Shown here: piece by piece, positions 2,085 to 8,478 of the stretch
Layout: each line of letters opens with the position of its first letter
Position numbering within the stretch: position 1 is the stretch's first letter
Origin: Spirochaetales bacterium
GTDB lineage: Bacteria > Spirochaetota > Spirochaetia > Sphaerochaetales > Sphaerochaetaceae
NCBI GenBank assembly: GCA_017962865.1
Contig: JAGCUM010000246.1
Coordinates: 1 to 8,478 of the forward strand
Direction: 5' to 3'
Length of the DNA stretch: 8,478 bases
The notes under the pieces: generated by a model
Told to the model about the DNA's origin: nothing
Database searches by the model: none
What the model saw: the letters and a program-made list of their open reading frames with translations, nothing else
Made by a program: the position numbers and the translations under genes

Positions 2085-3224
2085 TCAGCGCTTGTCCTTG
2101 TCGATGAATTCGAGGCTCACCGTCGCAAGAATCGCACACACCATTGAGAACAGGATCAGGGCTCCCCAGTACCTGTAGACATTCTCACGGCTCTTTTCGT
2201 AGTAGGGTCTTCTGAGCGTTGCGGAAGTCTTCTCCTTGACGTAGGTTCCCACGGCATCCTCACCCACGAGGTCGATCATGTCCTTTATGGTGAAGCTGAA
2301 GGTTATCTGATCCTGATTCTCCCTCAGATTGAAGGCATCTATCACGGAATCGGCAACCTCTCCTACCTTGATATCCACATTCTTGATCGGAACATCGAGG
2401 CTTCTCAGTTCCCGAATCGGAGTCAGGCTATCGTTCTGGAACGTAATTGCAATCTGCCCCTTGGTCAGCGTCACGGGAATATCGGCCTCCTTCATCTTCT
2501 GAAGGGTATTCCATGCTGTAACGGACGGAAGCTCGTTGAAATCAGCCTGTGCGGCAATACACCTGAGTCCGTAATGGGAAACCGTGAACTTGGCAATCCC
2601 GTCACTCCAGGAAGGAAGCGTGAAGATTCCGCCGGAGAAAATCAGCTGCACTATCAGCAGAAACGGCATGACAGTCATGGCGGTGGTGGTGTTTCTCACG
2701 ATGGCGGAAATAAAGAGCGCCATCATGTCCGCGGCATAGGTAATCAGAAGCAGCGTCACGCCCATGTCCACCACCAGATAATCGGAAACCGCACCCGTAA
2801 CCGGGAACTTGATTCCTATCACGACCAGAATTCCCATGGTGGCGATGGTCTGAAGGATGCAGAGAATCAGCTGGTACAGCATGTGGGAAATGATATAGGA
2901 CGATATGTGCATGCCTGCACGGTGCTCTCTCTTGACGATATCCCTCTCGCGGCAGATGACCTGGATTGAATTGAAGCATCCGTTCCAAATTCCTATGCAG
3001 GAAAGCGCCAGAGCACCCTTGAGCGTTCCTTCCATGTTGACGAAGAAATCGTTCTTGACGACCATCGATACCACCGCTGCAATCAGCATTGCCATTGGGA
3101 TGACCTTCCAGTCGTTCTGATAGAGGAACATGCGTATCAGCTTTCCGAAGCAGAGGGCAATCTGGTCGATTCTTCTTCTATGTCTGTCAGTGATGTTGTA
3201 GCCCTGGGTCTTTGTTTCAGCCAT
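2085..3224 (-). CDS. ABC-2/ABCG-type transporter permease
   Basis: This is the membrane-spanning half of an ABC exporter, 379 residues from the start chosen here. Hydrophobic segments at about 41-57, 70-90, 108-138, 150-176, 183-203 and 352-371 give six helices. The segment before the third helix (CRERDIVKREHRAGMH, 91-106) resembles the charged elbow of ABCG/ABC2_membrane permeases. Between helices 5 and 6 lies a loop of about 145 residues that would face outside; it is large for the family and could bind substrate or a partner. The start at 3224 is chosen because GGAGGT lies five bases upstream; an upstream in-frame ATG at 3239 would contain that site inside the coding region. The start overlaps the last 8 bases of the ATPase fusion gene, so the two proteins are probably translationally coupled and form one transporter. 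The substrate is unknown. Confidence 0.88.
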   Translation of the reverse strand: MAETKTQGYNITDRHRRRIDQIALCFGKLIRMFLYQNDWKVIPMAMLIAAVVSMVVKNDFFVNMEGTLKGALALSCIGIWNGCFNSIQVICRERDIVKREHRAGMHISSYIISHMLYQLILCILQTIATMGILVVIGIKFPVTGAVSDYLVVDMGVTLLLITYAADMMALFISAIVRNTTTAMTVMPFLLIVQLIFSGGIFTLPSWSDGIAKFTVSHYGLRCIAAQADFNELPSVTAWNTLQKMKEADIPVTLTKGQIAITFQNDSLTPIRELRSLDVPIKNVDIKVGEVADSVIDAFNLRENQDQITFSFTIKDMIDLVGEDAVGTYVKEKTSATLRRPYYEKSRENVYRYWGALILFSMVCAILATVSLEFIDKDKR

Positions 3225-4602
3225 TTGCCACCTCCGCATATGCGCCGCTTGCGTACTTCTTGATGAATTCGTCGGCCCTGCCCTCGCCGCCGACGTTCTT
3301 GCTGTTGATGGCCATGACTATCTTCTCCATCTCCTTGCGATCGAAGAAGGCCCTTGCCTCCTCGACAGGCCCGTAGAATGCAAGCCTTCCGACGCGGTCC
3401 TTGTCCCTGGCCAGGACAATCACATCATCGAACAGGTCTATGACTCTGTCCGGCGTATGTGTTATCACGATTACTATCTTGCCCTGGTCAGCGATCTTTC
3501 TCAGCTGGACCATCAGCTCGCGGGCCATGACTCCGTCCAGACCCGAATCCGGCTCGTCAAGGATGAAGAGCGACGGGTTGGAAACGAACTCCATGGCAAT
3601 CGAAAGACGCCTGAGCATACCGCCAGAGAGCTTCTCGACCATGTTCTTTCGGCTCTGGTAAAGGCCGAAAATCTCCATGACCTCCTTCTCCCTGGCTATC
3701 ATATCCGCTTTCCTGACGGACAGCGGCAGGCGGAGCTTGGAGGCATCGTTTATGGTATTCTCGACCGTATCCTTGCCCCTCATGAGGTTCTGCTGGGGCA
3801 CGAATCCGATGTCATATTTGATCTTTTTGTAATTGGCATAGACATCCGTTCCATTCAGGAAAACCTTGGCCTTGGCCTTCTCATATCCGTTGACGGCATT
3901 GAGGAACGTTGTCTTTCCGGCTCCCGAGCCACCCAGAAGAAGGACCATGTGGCCAGGCTTGATGTTGAGGTGGATATCGCGCAACAGGCATTTCTTATGC
4001 ATGAAATCGTTGACTGTCCTTTCCTCGAGGTTCACTGAAAGCCCTGTATCCGTGGGTTTGACCGTACTTCCTGATATGGCTGCAAGGGATTCCTCGCGAA
4101 GGTTCTCGACCTTGATGGAAGGCTGCCACTTCTTGGAATAACCGGTGACCATCGCGGAGATTCCCCTGAAGAAAAGCCAGATCCAGATGTGGCGTCTCTT
4201 TCTGCCGTAGACCTCATCCAGGCCGTAGAAGACCCTGAGGGTATATATACGGAGAATCACGAAGACGGTTAAGGTCAGGATACTCAGTAGAATCCTAGTC
4301 GTTTCATCGAAGTTCTCAACGGAATAGAACTCGCTGAACAGCGAGTCCAACTCATAGAAGAGCTCGGCAAAGAACAGGGCCTTGCCCTCAGCCTCCCTGT
4401 CGGCGCACTTTGCCAGGACGAACATCCTGTAGCATGGGACCAGTGCCCAGAAGGGACTTACCCCTGACTTTCTGAATATCCCGGAAAGTCCTATGATGAA
4501 CAGGACACCCATGATAAAGGTCACGGCACTGAATCCGTCGTAGATTCTCGTTCCGACCAGAATCAGGGACAGAAAATTAAATATATCTATCAATATGGCC
4601 AT
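3217..4602 (-). CDS. Membrane domain fused to ABCG-type ABC transporter ATPase
   Basis: This is a 461-residue two-part protein. Residues 1 to about 155 form a membrane domain with hydrophobic helices near 1-19, 25-43, 104-123 and 137-152. Its segment SGVSPFWALVPCYRMFVLAK (46-65) resembles the G-W-x-A-[IL]-[IV]-P-x-Y-[NR] signature of small DUF5684-like bacterial membrane proteins. Residues about 188-425 form an ABC ATPase: Walker A GGSGAGKTT (224-232), Q-loop at 270-271, signature LSGGM (325-329, Met where Gln is usual), Walker B LFILDE (345-350), D-loop SGLD (353-356), switch His382. The layout and spacing resemble the ABCG (White) subfamily. It pairs with the ABC2 permease whose start overlaps this gene's stop, forming an exporter. 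No Shine-Dalgarno site is visible before the ATG. The transported molecule is unknown. Family assignment of the N-terminal domain is from motif resemblance only. Confidence 0.85.
   Translation of the reverse strand: MAILIDIFNFLSLILVGTRIYDGFSAVTFIMGVLFIIGLSGIFRKSGVSPFWALVPCYRMFVLAKCADREAEGKALFFAELFYELDSLFSEFYSVENFDETTRILLSILTLTVFVILRIYTLRVFYGLDEVYGRKRRHIWIWLFFRGISAMVTGYSKKWQPSIKVENLREESLAAISGSTVKPTDTGLSVNLEERTVNDFMHKKCLLRDIHLNIKPGHMVLLLGGSGAGKTTFLNAVNGYEKAKAKVFLNGTDVYANYKKIKYDIGFVPQQNLMRGKDTVENTINDASKLRLPLSVRKADMIAREKEVMEIFGLYQSRKNMVEKLSGGMLRRLSIAMEFVSNPSLFILDEPDSGLDGVMARELMVQLRKIADQGKIVIVITHTPDRVIDLFDDVIVLARDKDRVGRLAFYGPVEEARAFFDRKEMEKIVMAINSKNVGGEGRADEFIKKYASGAYAEVANG
3230..3235 (-). promoter_or_regulatory. 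Ribosome binding site fixing the permease start
   Basis: GGAGGT on the minus strand lies five bases before ATG at 3224-3222, inside the end of the upstream ATPase gene. It decides the start against the ATG at 3239, and supports coupled translation of the two transporter subunits. Confidence 0.8.
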
Positions 4603-4709: not shown

Positions 4710-6101
4710 TCAGGCACCTTCGAAATATCTCTTTGCATTGTTGAAGGAAATGTCCTTCACCATGCCTCCGACGAGGTCGAAGTCTGCCGGAATCTCACCG
4801 TTCTCCATCCAGGTTCCCAGCATGTTGCACAGGATTCTTCTGAAGTACTCGTGTCTGGGATAGGAAAGGAAGGATCTGCTGTCGGTCAGCATTCCGATGA
4901 AGCGTGAGAGAAGTCCGAGGTTTCCGAGGACCTTCATCTGCTCCGTCATTCCGTCGATGTGGTCGCAGAACCACCATGCGCTTCCCATCTGGATCTTACC
5001 GGGAAGGTCACGCTGGAAGCAGCCCATCAATGTCCCGATTGAATAGTAGTCCTTCGGATTCAGTGAATAGATGATTGTCTTGGGCAATGCATTCTTCATG
5101 TCCAAAGTATCAAGGAAGCGGGACAGATTGTGGGCGATCTCCCTGTCCGTTACCCCGTCATAGCCGGTATCGGGTCCGAGGGCCTTGAAACCGCGGGTAT
5201 TGTTGTTTCTGGAAGACTGCATGTGAAGCTGCATGGCGATATTGCGCTTGGAGTACTCCTCTGCAAGGCTCATCAGGATGAATGTCCTGTAGATCTCTGC
5301 CTCTTCGGCGCTGACGCTCTGGCCGCTTCTTGCCTTGAGGAAAACCTCGTTGACCTTGGCATCGCTTGCAGGTGCATAAGGCGGGACGATGATTGCATGG
5401 TCGGTTGCCAGACATCCGTTGGCCACGAACCAGTCAAGTCTCTGTGCAAGGGCTGTCATGACATCGGCGGCGCTTGTGATCTTGACTCCGGAAGCTACGG
5501 CAAGCTTGTCGATATAGGCATTGAAGCCCTCGGCATCGATGTTCATCGCTTTGTCGGGTCTGAAGGACGGGATGACCTTGGTATCGGTCTTTCCTGCCTT
5601 TCTGATGGCGGCATGGTACTCGAGGCTGTCGATGGGATCATCGGTTGTTCCGACTGCGTAGACATTGAACTTCCTGAAGATACCGTAGGCATCGAGAGAA
5701 GGATCGTTCTTGAGCTTCTCGTTTGCTGCATCGTAGATCTCGCGGGCTGTCTTGGGGCTCAGCGGAGTATGGATGTCGAAGAATCTCTGAAGCTCGAGGT
5801 GCGACCAGTGGTACAGCGGATTTCCGATTGCATGGGAGATCGTATCTGCATAGTTGAGGAATCTCTGATAGTCATCGCCCTCTTTCTCGTCGTAGCCGTT
5901 GGTTCTCATCTGGCGCCACTTGTAGTGGTCTCCGTAGAGCCATGCGCTGGTGATGCTGGGCTCGCGCTTGTTGTCCGCAATCTCCTTGGGAATGAGACGG
6001 CAGTGATAGTCGAAGATCGGCATCTGCTTTGCATACTCGTGGTAAAGCCTTTCGGCGCAGTCGTTGTTAAGAAGGAAGTTTTCGTCCATGAATGCTTTCA
6101 T
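4710..6101 (-). CDS. uxaC: Uronate isomerase UxaC (with H35R in the H-x-H motif)
   Basis: This cytosolic enzyme interconverts D-glucuronate with D-fructuronate, and D-galacturonate with D-tagaturonate, the first step of hexuronate breakdown. The 463 residues align from end to end with E. coli UxaC as I recall it (about 470): FM-x-E-x-FLL at the N-terminus, GDHYKWR-x-MRTNG (57-69), IGNPLYHW (92-99), GTTDDPIDSL (151-160), PS-F-RPDKA (178-185), RNNN then LGPD, LPKTI-x-Y-x-LNP, and LTDSRSFLSY with RHEYFRRILC near the C-terminus. Equivalents of catalytic H33, Y60, R186 (R181 here) and D412/R414 (D407/R409 here) are present. The odd point is DYHCRL at 31-36: the family almost always has DYHCHL, so the second His of the metal-binding H-x-H is Arg, from codon CGT at 5999-5997. 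The start ATG has AGGAG six bases upstream. Only 12 bp separate it from the larA-like stop, so both are surely cotranscribed. Confidence 0.96.
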   Translation of the reverse strand: MKAFMDENFLLNNDCAERLYHEYAKQMPIFDYHCRLIPKEIADNKREPSITSAWLYGDHYKWRQMRTNGYDEKEGDDYQRFLNYADTISHAIGNPLYHWSHLELQRFFDIHTPLSPKTAREIYDAANEKLKNDPSLDAYGIFRKFNVYAVGTTDDPIDSLEYHAAIRKAGKTDTKVIPSFRPDKAMNIDAEGFNAYIDKLAVASGVKITSAADVMTALAQRLDWFVANGCLATDHAIIVPPYAPASDAKVNEVFLKARSGQSVSAEEAEIYRTFILMSLAEEYSKRNIAMQLHMQSSRNNNTRGFKALGPDTGYDGVTDREIAHNLSRFLDTLDMKNALPKTIIYSLNPKDYYSIGTLMGCFQRDLPGKIQMGSAWWFCDHIDGMTEQMKVLGNLGLLSRFIGMLTDSRSFLSYPRHEYFRRILCNMLGTWMENGEIPADFDLVGGMVKDISFNNAKRYFEGA

Positions 6102-6113: not shown

Positions 6114-7355
6114 TCAGGAATTGAATTTCTCTCTGTTGATCCAGAGTCCGAGTGCTGGATTGGGGATGTAGAAGATCTCCTCCCCATCAACTGTATTGTA
6201 GCCGTACTGAAGCTTGGCAGGGTCATACTTCTTTGCAAGCTCGTCATAGGATGCAGGGCTGAATCCGACGTCCTCGATCTCCTTCTGGGAGATGTCACGT
6301 ACTGCATATGTGATGCTGAATCTTCCGTCGCTTGAGCCGTGGATCAGATGGGCTGCAACACCCATGTTGGCCTGAAGGTCCTCGTTCTGGTTCAGAAGCT
6401 CCAGGGTGTGGATCCTTCCCTTGTAGCCGTACTTTCTGATCAGGGCATCGTTGGTCTTGTCCTCGCCGAACTTGTCCACTGCAGGGGCAAGGATGATCAG
6501 CTCACCGCCGTCGGCAATTGCCATTCTGGTGCGGTAGACTGCCTTGTTACCCAGCCATGTGCTGTGGAACTCCTTCTCGTTGAGGTACACGACGCACTTC
6601 TTGATCCCGGTATCCACATAGTCGATGTTCTTTTCCTGTGCCAGGGCTACCGCATCCTCGAGAGGTTTTCTGTCCTCTCCGATGAACAGTCCGTGAGTCT
6701 GGATGACATTGTTGGGAGCCGTACAGACCGTGAGCATCCACAGGAGGTGGCATCTCTTGGAAAGGAAATGCTCAAGAGCATAGTCGAAGATTCTCCTGAC
6801 GGGGGTGAAATCGCGGCCCATCATCCTCTCCATGCCGTAGACGGCACCGATGATATGGCTCTGGTTGATCATGTCCGATCCGCCTGCTCCGACAAAGAGG
6901 TTCTTTGCCTGGTTGGCCATTCCGATGACCTCATGCGGAACTACCTGACCCGGTGAAAGGACAAGGTCGAACTTCGGGTCAAGGACCATCCTGTTGACCT
7001 CAACCGCAACACCCTTCTTCCACAGGCCCTCGGTGACCTCCTCGACGAATGAGGCGGGAACCTCACCTATGTTCTCGACATCGTGGCGCCAGTCATGGCC
7101 GTGGAACTTCTCGAGGGGGATATCCCCGTACATGGCCTTGATTTCCTTCTCGGTCATGGGGACATGGGTTCCCAGGGCTTCCAGGATCTCAACTCCGACG
7201 TTGTTCTCCACACACCAGTGATAGGCGACGTTGGCAATCAGGCCTGCGTTGGAGAAACATCTTGTGTAATCGGGCACCACCATGAGGATATTTTTCGGCT
7301 TGCGCTCCTCAAGGGCCTTGATGACCATCTCTTTGATCTGTTTATCAGTAAGCAT
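6114..7355 (-). CDS. LarA-like nickel-pincer-nucleotide 2-hydroxyacid racemase/epimerase
   Basis: This 413-residue protein belongs to the LarA (DUF2088) superfamily, which moves a hydride at C2 of 2-hydroxyacids using a lysine-linked nickel-pincer nucleotide. Compared with Lactiplantibacillus plantarum LarA from memory, these key residues are kept: D-x-T-R (D29, R32; LarA R75), G-x-H (H64; H108), H141 (H174), cofactor lysine K151 (K184) and H167 (H200). The gaps H141-K151 (10) and K151-H167 (16) match LarA exactly. K271 aligns with K298, while the Gln three residues before it becomes Leu268, so the substrate probably differs from lactate. The start at 7355 is chosen for AAGGA six bases upstream; the in-frame ATG at 7451 would run back through the operator array. 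Lying between gnd and uxaC, it may be a D-gluconate/D-mannonate C2 epimerase (GntE-like). That substrate is inference. The cofactor genes larB, larC and larE are not in the window. Confidence 0.85.
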   Translation of the reverse strand: MLTDKQIKEMVIKALEERKPKNILMVVPDYTRCFSNAGLIANVAYHWCVENNVGVEILEALGTHVPMTEKEIKAMYGDIPLEKFHGHDWRHDVENIGEVPASFVEEVTEGLWKKGVAVEVNRMVLDPKFDLVLSPGQVVPHEVIGMANQAKNLFVGAGGSDMINQSHIIGAVYGMERMMGRDFTPVRRIFDYALEHFLSKRCHLLWMLTVCTAPNNVIQTHGLFIGEDRKPLEDAVALAQEKNIDYVDTGIKKCVVYLNEKEFHSTWLGNKAVYRTRMAIADGGELIILAPAVDKFGEDKTNDALIRKYGYKGRIHTLELLNQNEDLQANMGVAAHLIHGSSDGRFSITYAVRDISQKEIEDVGFSPASYDELAKKYDPAKLQYGYNTVDGEEIFYIPNPALGLWINREKFNS

Positions 7356-7366: not shown

Positions 7367-7384
7367 CTACAAGTCCTAAATGCA

Positions 7385-7466
7385 AAGTTAGTACAAAACG
7401 CCGCTTAAGGTCGATTTGTACTAACTTCTTAGTACGGAAACCACATTGCATGGCTCCTGTACTAAC
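7385..7466 (-). promoter_or_regulatory. Operator array of four TTAGTAC boxes upstream of the larA-like gene
   Basis: Four copies of TTAGTAC or its reverse complement occur in 82 bp: 7388-7394 (plus orientation), 7418-7424 (reverse), 7429-7435 (plus) and 7459-7465 (reverse). Centre-to-centre distances are 30, 11 and 30 bp, so a two-box unit repeats with a 41-bp period, close to whole helical turns. The first two boxes lie in a perfect 13-bp inverted repeat (7385-7397 with 7415-7427). Boxes 2 and 3 form GTACTAA-CTTC-TTAGTAC. Single boxes 1 and 2 are nearly palindromic around GTAC (TTnGTACnAA), a form compatible with GntR/FadR-family operators. This is probably the binding site of a regulator responding to a uronate or aldonate. 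A weak -10 (TAGAAT, minus strand 7477-7472) would start transcription at box 4, but its -35 is poor, so the promoter itself is not firmly placed. Confidence 0.65.
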
Positions 7467-7500
7467 ATTTCATTCTATTATTTCATTCACTTCCCGCCGA

Positions 7501-8478
7501 TCAGGCATTGTAGGTGGATGCACTGGTGCTTCCGCCCTCGCCTGTCCAGTTCGTATGGAAGAACTGTCCACGCGGAGCATCGACTCTCTCGTATGTGTGG
7601 GCACCGAAGTAGTCTCTCTGCCCCTGAAGCAGGTTCGCCGGAAGCCTTTCGGTGGTGTAGCCGTCGAAGTAGCTCAGAGCACTTGAGAATGCCGGTGTCG
7701 GGATTCCGCAGAGAGCTGCGTTGGCAACAACCTTTCTCCATGCCGGTACCAGGCTCTCGATAAGGGCCTTGAAGTACGGGTCCAGAAGCAGGTTCGAAAG
7801 CTCGGGATCCTTGTCGTAGGCTTCCTTGATCTTGCCCAGGAAGGTCGAACGGATGATACAGCCGCCTCTCCACATCAGGGCGATTCCGCCGTAGTTGAGC
7901 TTCCAGCCGTAGTTCTTGGCGGCAGCCTTCATCAGGACATAACCCTGGGCGTAGCTGATGATCTTGGATGCAAGAAGAGCCTTGCGGATGTTCTCGATCA
8001 TCTCTTTCCTGTCGCCCTCGAACTTGCCGCGGACGACGTTGTAGGCCTTTGAAGCCTCGACACGCTCTGCCTTCATAGCGGACAGGCAGCGTGCGAAGAC
8101 AGCCTCACCGATCAGTGTAAGGGGAACACCCTCGTCGAGAGCGGCGATTCCGGTCCACTTTCCGGTTCCCTTCTGTCCTGCAGTATCGAGGATCTTGTCA
8201 ACCAGAGGCTTTCCGTCCTCGTCCTTCTTTGCAAGGATCTCGCTTGTGATCTGGATGAGATAGCTGTCAAGCTCGGTCTTGTTCCAGGCATCGAAAACCT
8301 CATGCATCTCGTCTGCTGTCATGCCGAGAAGGTCCTTCATGAGCTGGTAGGCCTCGCAGATGAGCTGCATGTCACCGTCCTCGATTCCGTTGTGGACCAT
8401 CTTGCCGAAGTGGCCTGCACCGCCGTTTCCGACCCAGTCGCAGCAGGGACGTCCGTCCTCGACCTTCGCGCTGACAGC
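7501..8478 (-). CDS. gnd: 6-Phosphogluconate dehydrogenase, decarboxylating, C-terminal 325 residues
   Basis: Gnd oxidises and decarboxylates 6-phosphogluconate to ribulose 5-phosphate with formation of NADPH (or NADH) in the cytosolic pentose phosphate pathway. The frame is open to the right edge; the N-terminal Rossmann domain (roughly the first 140-150 residues) is outside the window. Visible are AKVEDGRPC, then [20 protein letters not shown], which holds the catalytic Lys (26), the substrate-contacting His and Asn, and the catalytic Glu (33). Next come the family signature [25 protein letters not shown], and the C-terminal tail [20 protein letters not shown] with FHTNW. All belong to the long (about 470-residue) E. 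coli-like type rather than the short type. It is followed by the 145-bp operator gap and the larA-like gene on the same strand. No terminator is seen between them, so read-through is likely. Confidence 0.97.

Follow-up and report, generated by a model that had tools for sequence, protein, structure and literature searches.

The locus raises the question of what a LarA homologue does between gnd and uxaC. The window, the whole stretch of 8,478 nt of spirochaete DNA analysed here, carries on its minus strand an open ORF of 413 aa (6114..7355, with its ATG start codon at 7355). It encodes a LarA homologue of group 18, a putative nickel-pincer-nucleotide (NPN)-dependent hexonate 2-epimerase. The downstream gene on the same strand is uxaC (4710..6101), encoding glucuronate/galacturonate isomerase (PF02614, 618.3 bits; NF002794, 575.9 bits, cut-off 387), and 12 bp separate the two. 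The 6-phosphogluconate dehydrogenase gene gnd (minus strand, 7501..8478) scores 497.2 bits with TIGR00873 on its visible part (cut-off 426.7). Its 5' part lies beyond the window edge, and its end at 7501 is 145 bp upstream of the LarA homologue. Gene order, strand and Pfam and NCBIfam scores thus agree with the preliminary description, in which the ORF was tightly joined to uxaC and downstream of gnd. On balance, we favor the reading that the gene encodes an NPN-dependent C2-epimerase that converts D-mannonate to D-gluconate inside a uronate operon.

The protein scores 591.6 bits over residues 2-406 of 413 with the NCBIfam model NF052594 (NPN_18_hexonate, "nickel-dependent putative hexonate epimerase"; cut-off 500), and the same model is matched by 23/23 rows of alignment A1, window included. 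An ordinary lactate or malate racemase would have the same superfamily and fold, but this explanation is hardly credible, given 28.4 bits with the lactate racemase model (NF033504, cut-off 460) and 43.9 and 42.5 bits with the malate racemase models (NF052593 and NF052595, cut-offs 500 and 462). The earlier claim of an enzyme other than lactate racemase is therefore upheld. Just two solved structures are matched by sequence at 0.001, namely the Thermotoga maritima D-gluconate 2-epimerase GntE2 (4nar) with 118.6 bits and a lactate racemase apoprotein (2yjg) with 23.4 bits.

In LarA, R75, K184 and H200 bind NPN, and D72, H108, H174 and K298 serve in catalysis (PMC7583248). Mapped through sequence alignments, with the LarA numbering of that paper, these correspond in the window protein to R32, K151 and H167, and to D29, H64, H141 and K271, respectively. 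All seven are invariant in 81/81 group-18 sequences, window included, so their presence is not due to chance. The preliminary description had the Lys and three His residues of LarA kept with the same spacing. The residues are indeed kept, and so are two of the intervals (H141-K151, 10; K151-H167, 16), but the gap from the first to the second catalytic His is 77 in the window protein versus 66 in LarA, 11 longer.

An AlphaFold model of the protein built with 23 sequences (pLDDT 85.8, pTM 0.83) has the LarA fold over both domains. The Foldseek list obtained with this predicted model is headed by 14 LarA-like chains, including I. pallida and malate racemase entries; the closest is GntE2 (4nar, TM 0.83), followed by LarA (6c1w, 0.72). 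Membership in the LarA family, as first proposed, is borne out by the predicted fold together with the seven residues and the NF052594 score. Groups 18-20 share a signature consisting of an EV/S loop, a W in helix 11 and an A/V in helix 14 (PMC7583248). With positions placed by sequence alignment to GntE2 and the signature taken from the text and legend of that paper, the window protein carries it as E142-V143, W267 and V333, and all rows of alignment A1 have A or V at position 333. The sequence supports placing the protein in the LarA superfamily, within a group predicted to consist of hexonate epimerases. Group 18, which the window protein fits both as defined in PMC7583248 and as modelled by NF052594, has as its substrate a hypothesis: a hexonate was guessed there from the shared EV/S, W and A/V features, and the available parts of the paper list no group-18 protein among the LarA homologues assayed.

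The proposed route would begin with UxaC, forming fructuronate, which a UxuB-type or short-chain (SDR) reductase would reduce to mannonate. The LarA homologue would then convert D-mannonate to D-gluconate, the substrate and direction that we infer for it. A PfkB-type kinase encoded beside gnd would phosphorylate gluconate to 6-phosphogluconate, from which Gnd would produce ribulose 5-phosphate, CO2 and NADPH. LarA itself acts by proton-coupled hydride transfer with two histidines and NPN (PMC11770544, PMC7583248), and the mechanism for the window protein is read across from it. In such a hidden redox reaction, one His would take the C2-OH proton and the hydride would pass to the cofactor; the hydride would then come back to the opposite face of the carbon, and reprotonation would fall to the second His. 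The mannonate-gluconate route itself is already published for Thermotoga: Rodionova 2012 put forward the sequence from mannonate through gluconate to 6-phosphogluconate for T. maritima (via PMC6978723), and the activity of GntE2 on mannonate was shown in 2020 (PMC7583248). What is new relative to the published route is a group-18 module that co-occurs with a dedicated PfkB kinase, together with the undetected cofactor genes described below. No earlier description of a group-18 module with its own kinase was found in the open-licence literature searched. An uncharacterised LarA-homologue group would thereby gain a concrete and testable metabolic place, with one kinase family named as its likely partner.

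GntE2 (LarAH20) resembles the window protein in predicted fold, in its cofactor and catalytic residues, in the E after the second catalytic His and in its uronate pathway setting. The two proteins are, however, only 24% identical in structural alignment, and their substrate-side residues differ: N270 stands for G286 of GntE2, H339 for N355 and R345 for T361, which counts against the D-mannonate reading. The substrate of the epimerase may be the free acid or its 6-phosphate. If the order were reversed, the PfkB kinase would phosphorylate D-mannonate first and the LarA homologue would be a 6-phosphomannonate 2-epimerase yielding 6-phosphogluconate, an arrangement that we consider rather unlikely. 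Both activities, mannonate kinase and 6-phosphomannonate 2-epimerase, exist (PMC6978723). The hybrid galacturonate pathway of Lactobacillus suebicus resembles the route proposed here, since uronates reach the pentose phosphates through UxaC, UxuB and Gnd and UxuA is not used, but in that organism the mannonate kinase acts first, and the gene for the 6-phosphomannonate 2-epimerase is unidentified (PMC6978723). The window gene may be a candidate for this activity, for which cell extracts are the sole evidence. In the regions of helix 11 and helix 14, group 18 carries invariant basic residues that GntE2 lacks (R277 for Q, and the R345 and H339 already named); they would suit a phosphorylated substrate, though they are suggestive only. 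A phosphorylated aldose has been modelled, speculatively, in the active site of another LarA subfamily (PMC12611868), whereas the LarA homologues with tabulated activities use unphosphorylated acids (PMC7583248, PMC11770544).

Another hexonate or aldarate of uronate breakdown, such as altronate, gulonate or glucarate, would also suit the family, with gnd a neighbour for another reason. The precedent is GntE1 (LarAH19) of Corynebacterium glutamicum, which shares the uronate context and the signature features but belongs to a separate group and has a very high Km for mannonate (120 mM), so that its authors suspect another substrate (PMC7583248). This explanation appears improbable for the window protein, since genes of its group lie beside mannonate-forming reductases and gnd in several phyla, and UxuA, the alternative user of mannonate, seldom passes its cut-off (11/76 genomes; see below).

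Conversion of D-mannonate to D-gluconate, the preferred reading, is consistent with the gene neighbourhood in relatives. A scan of the genome collection yielded at least 587 relatives, of which the best 80 loci were kept with the window to give 81, a set that leans towards the window. The first ORF caller returned the anchor gene in 56/81 loci, longer antisense ORFs probably displacing it; a conservation-weighted caller returned it in 75/81, and the remaining 6 were forced. Counting up to four genes away on the same strand, gnd is found in 52/81 of these loci, a PfkB-type kinase cluster that includes paralogues in 38/81, an SDR in 20/81, uxaC in 19/81, a Mannitol_dh-family reductase in 9/81 and UxaE in 7/81. 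These counts are lower bounds, many contigs being short, and the clusters are named from one representative each (419.2 bits with the D-mannonate oxidoreductase model, cut-off 281, for the SDR; 547.8 bits for UxaE). The link to gnd is thus conserved, and that to uxaC less often so. In 10/81 loci (e.g. L044:505-1359) the LarA homologue has a Cof-type HAD phosphatase nearby, directly upstream in eight of them; this is a possible sugar-acid phosphatase.

The nearest locus, L001, is syntenic with the window (87.7% nucleotide identity along it) and has the order Mannitol_dh-family reductase, PfkB kinase (L001:6177-7253), gnd, LarA homologue, uxaC. With the Mannitol_dh-family protein as reductase and the PfkB protein as kinase, L001 would encode the complete route in adjacent genes. 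In the tree, the window sequence groups with those of eight spirochaete loci in a single clade (support 97/95), and gnd directly precedes the LarA homologue in all nine. Mis-binning of the gene into spirochaete drafts is therefore unlikely.

The kinase, UxuA and uxaC were followed in 76 genomes from several phyla, those of the best 80 loci minus L013, L025, L037 and L057. uxaC is found in 67/76 (64 over the cut-off). UxuA, the usual mannonate dehydratase, is over its cut-off in 11/76, all with uxaC, and five more have weaker matches; 56 of the 67 uxaC genomes have no UxuA over the cut-off. A PfkB kinase with at least 60% identity to the gnd-adjacent copy is present in 71/76, six of these as partial matches. 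The UxuA and kinase frequencies refer only to genomes that carry the enzyme. The GntK gluconate kinase is detected in 0/76 genomes at E 1e-15, with just 40 candidates scored in many of them. The FGGY gluconokinase model is likewise reached in 0/76, at a high cut-off (648.55 bits) that one of three matching control genomes itself does not reach, and one of the 76 has a 350-bit match. The T. maritima control genome matches the FGGY gluconokinase model, as well as those for UxuA and LarC, whereas the group-18 genomes have the PfkB kinase. The check for a gluconate kinase suggested earlier thus found neither known type over its cut-off and a PfkB kinase in their place. The same pattern would also fit phosphorylation of mannonate ahead of epimerisation.

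The gnd-adjacent PfkB kinase is likely the gluconate or mannonate kinase of the route, an identity and a place in the order of steps that we infer. It is most like 2-keto-3-deoxygluconate (KDG) kinases (PDB 2afb, 104 bits) and meets no NCBIfam cut-off, and judged by sequence it could phosphorylate KDG instead. Two spirochaetes encode a fusion of KDPG aldolase and a KDG-type kinase just after uxaC (L002:12643-14385 and L003:12618-14393). The fusion in L002 is named by a model score just under the cut-off, and in both loci it is a separate paralogue of the gnd-adjacent kinase. The preliminary description had the route bypass UxuA, KdgK and Eda. With UxuA over the cut-off in so few genomes, a bypass of UxuA is plausible, but given the fusion in two close relatives, a bypass of KdgK and Eda would describe the metabolism incompletely.

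The cofactor genes are unevenly distributed. Over their cut-offs, LarB is found in 32/76 genomes, LarE in 33/76 and LarC in 35/76 (8/26 and 27/50), each with one further partial match. Counting partials, 29 genomes have all three, 35 have none and 12 are mixed (LarC alone in six, LarB and LarE without LarC in three, LarE alone in two, LarB and LarC without LarE in one). For these counts, sub-cut-off matches to LarB and LarE were taken as absent, apart from one for each protein at the edge of a contig, while a single partial LarC was scored as present. The weak LarB and LarE matches are presumably other enzymes (PurE-like and other PP-loop proteins). The whole LarC family (PF01969) is found in 0/35 lar-negative genomes, compared with 3/3 comparison genomes. 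The isolate Pseudoflavonifractor sp. MSJ-30 has LarB, LarE and then only the C-terminal third of LarC (L081:2749-3240), and the N-terminal part of LarC was not found in its genome.

The 35 lar-negative genomes are all metagenome drafts by title. Of these, 32 have recA and 30 have gyrB (best match at least 500 bits; some weaker gyrB matches may be parE), with both in 27. Incompleteness is thus unlikely to be the sole cause. With gene loss set at 15%, the probability of at least 35 absences among 76 would be about 1e-10, an estimate that treats the genomes as independent although related drafts are not. Speaking for gaps, presence and absence are only weakly clustered on the tree, with 18 changes versus a shuffled mean of 21.5, and 34/500 shuffles are as low. 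One close pair differs outright, L016 having all three genes and L021, a 1.3 Mb draft, none, which suggests that some absences are draft gaps. Draft gaps probably explain part of the lar absence, not all of it. The earlier proposal that growth on uronates depends on nickel is in doubt, because the search for LarB, LarC and LarE, set beforehand as a refuting test, detected none in the five genomes nearest the window (G001-G005, those of loci L001-L005). These five each have recA, uxaC and the PfkB kinase; G001, the nearest, has no gyrB at 500 bits or more.

In lar-negative organisms the protein might work without the nickel cofactor, using another one, or be inactive. The missing LarB, LarC and LarE and the PF01969 result would fit such a loss, but the cofactor Lys, the nickel His, the phosphate Arg and both catalytic His are unchanged in 36/36 sequences of the lar-negative class, window included, and we regard a nickel-free protein as slightly less probable still than a different hexonate. 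With the lar genes undetected and the cofactor residues unchanged, we favor cofactor salvage over cofactor loss, with moderate confidence. Hosts without LarB, LarC and LarE would then obtain the cofactor from outside the cell or by an unknown route. Against salvage stand the draft nature of all 35 genomes and the scatter of the lar genes on the tree, and we know of no NPN transporter. A tentative extension is that NPN serves rumen and gut communities as a common "vitamin": bacteria such as this spirochaete would need an NPN enzyme for uronates, be unable to make NPN, and take it or a precursor from neighbours with LarB, LarC and LarE. The module would also bring an uncharacterised hexonate kinase of PfkB type and perhaps the gene missing for 6-phosphomannonate 2-epimerase. 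No mention of NPN trading between gut microbes was found in the literature searched, as far as its accessible parts go. If the absence of lar genes holds in complete genomes, NPN would count among the vitamins that gut microbes exchange.

Between gnd and the LarA homologue, a repeat search found an inverted repeat with 16-nt arms that are 94% complementary (7385..7427). Several TTAGTAC/GTACTAA half-sites, arranged as inverted repeats, precede the LarA homologue at 7379-7474. Among the window and the eight spirochaete loci searched, these half-sites occur only in the window and at the corresponding position of L001, and close relatives may therefore differ in regulation. The repeat with its half-sites to 7474 is a possible operator.

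Downstream of uxaC, the window encodes an ABC ATPase (461 aa) and an ABC-2 permease (2085-4602), for both of which TIGR00955 (pigment precursor, ABCG-type) is the best model, far under its cut-off. A short-chain dehydrogenase is encoded at 1238-2011, just over the cut-off of NF006070, the gluconate 5-dehydrogenase subfamily (281.6 versus 279 bits). A partial acyl-CoA synthetase family protein is encoded on the opposite strand at 2-1168.
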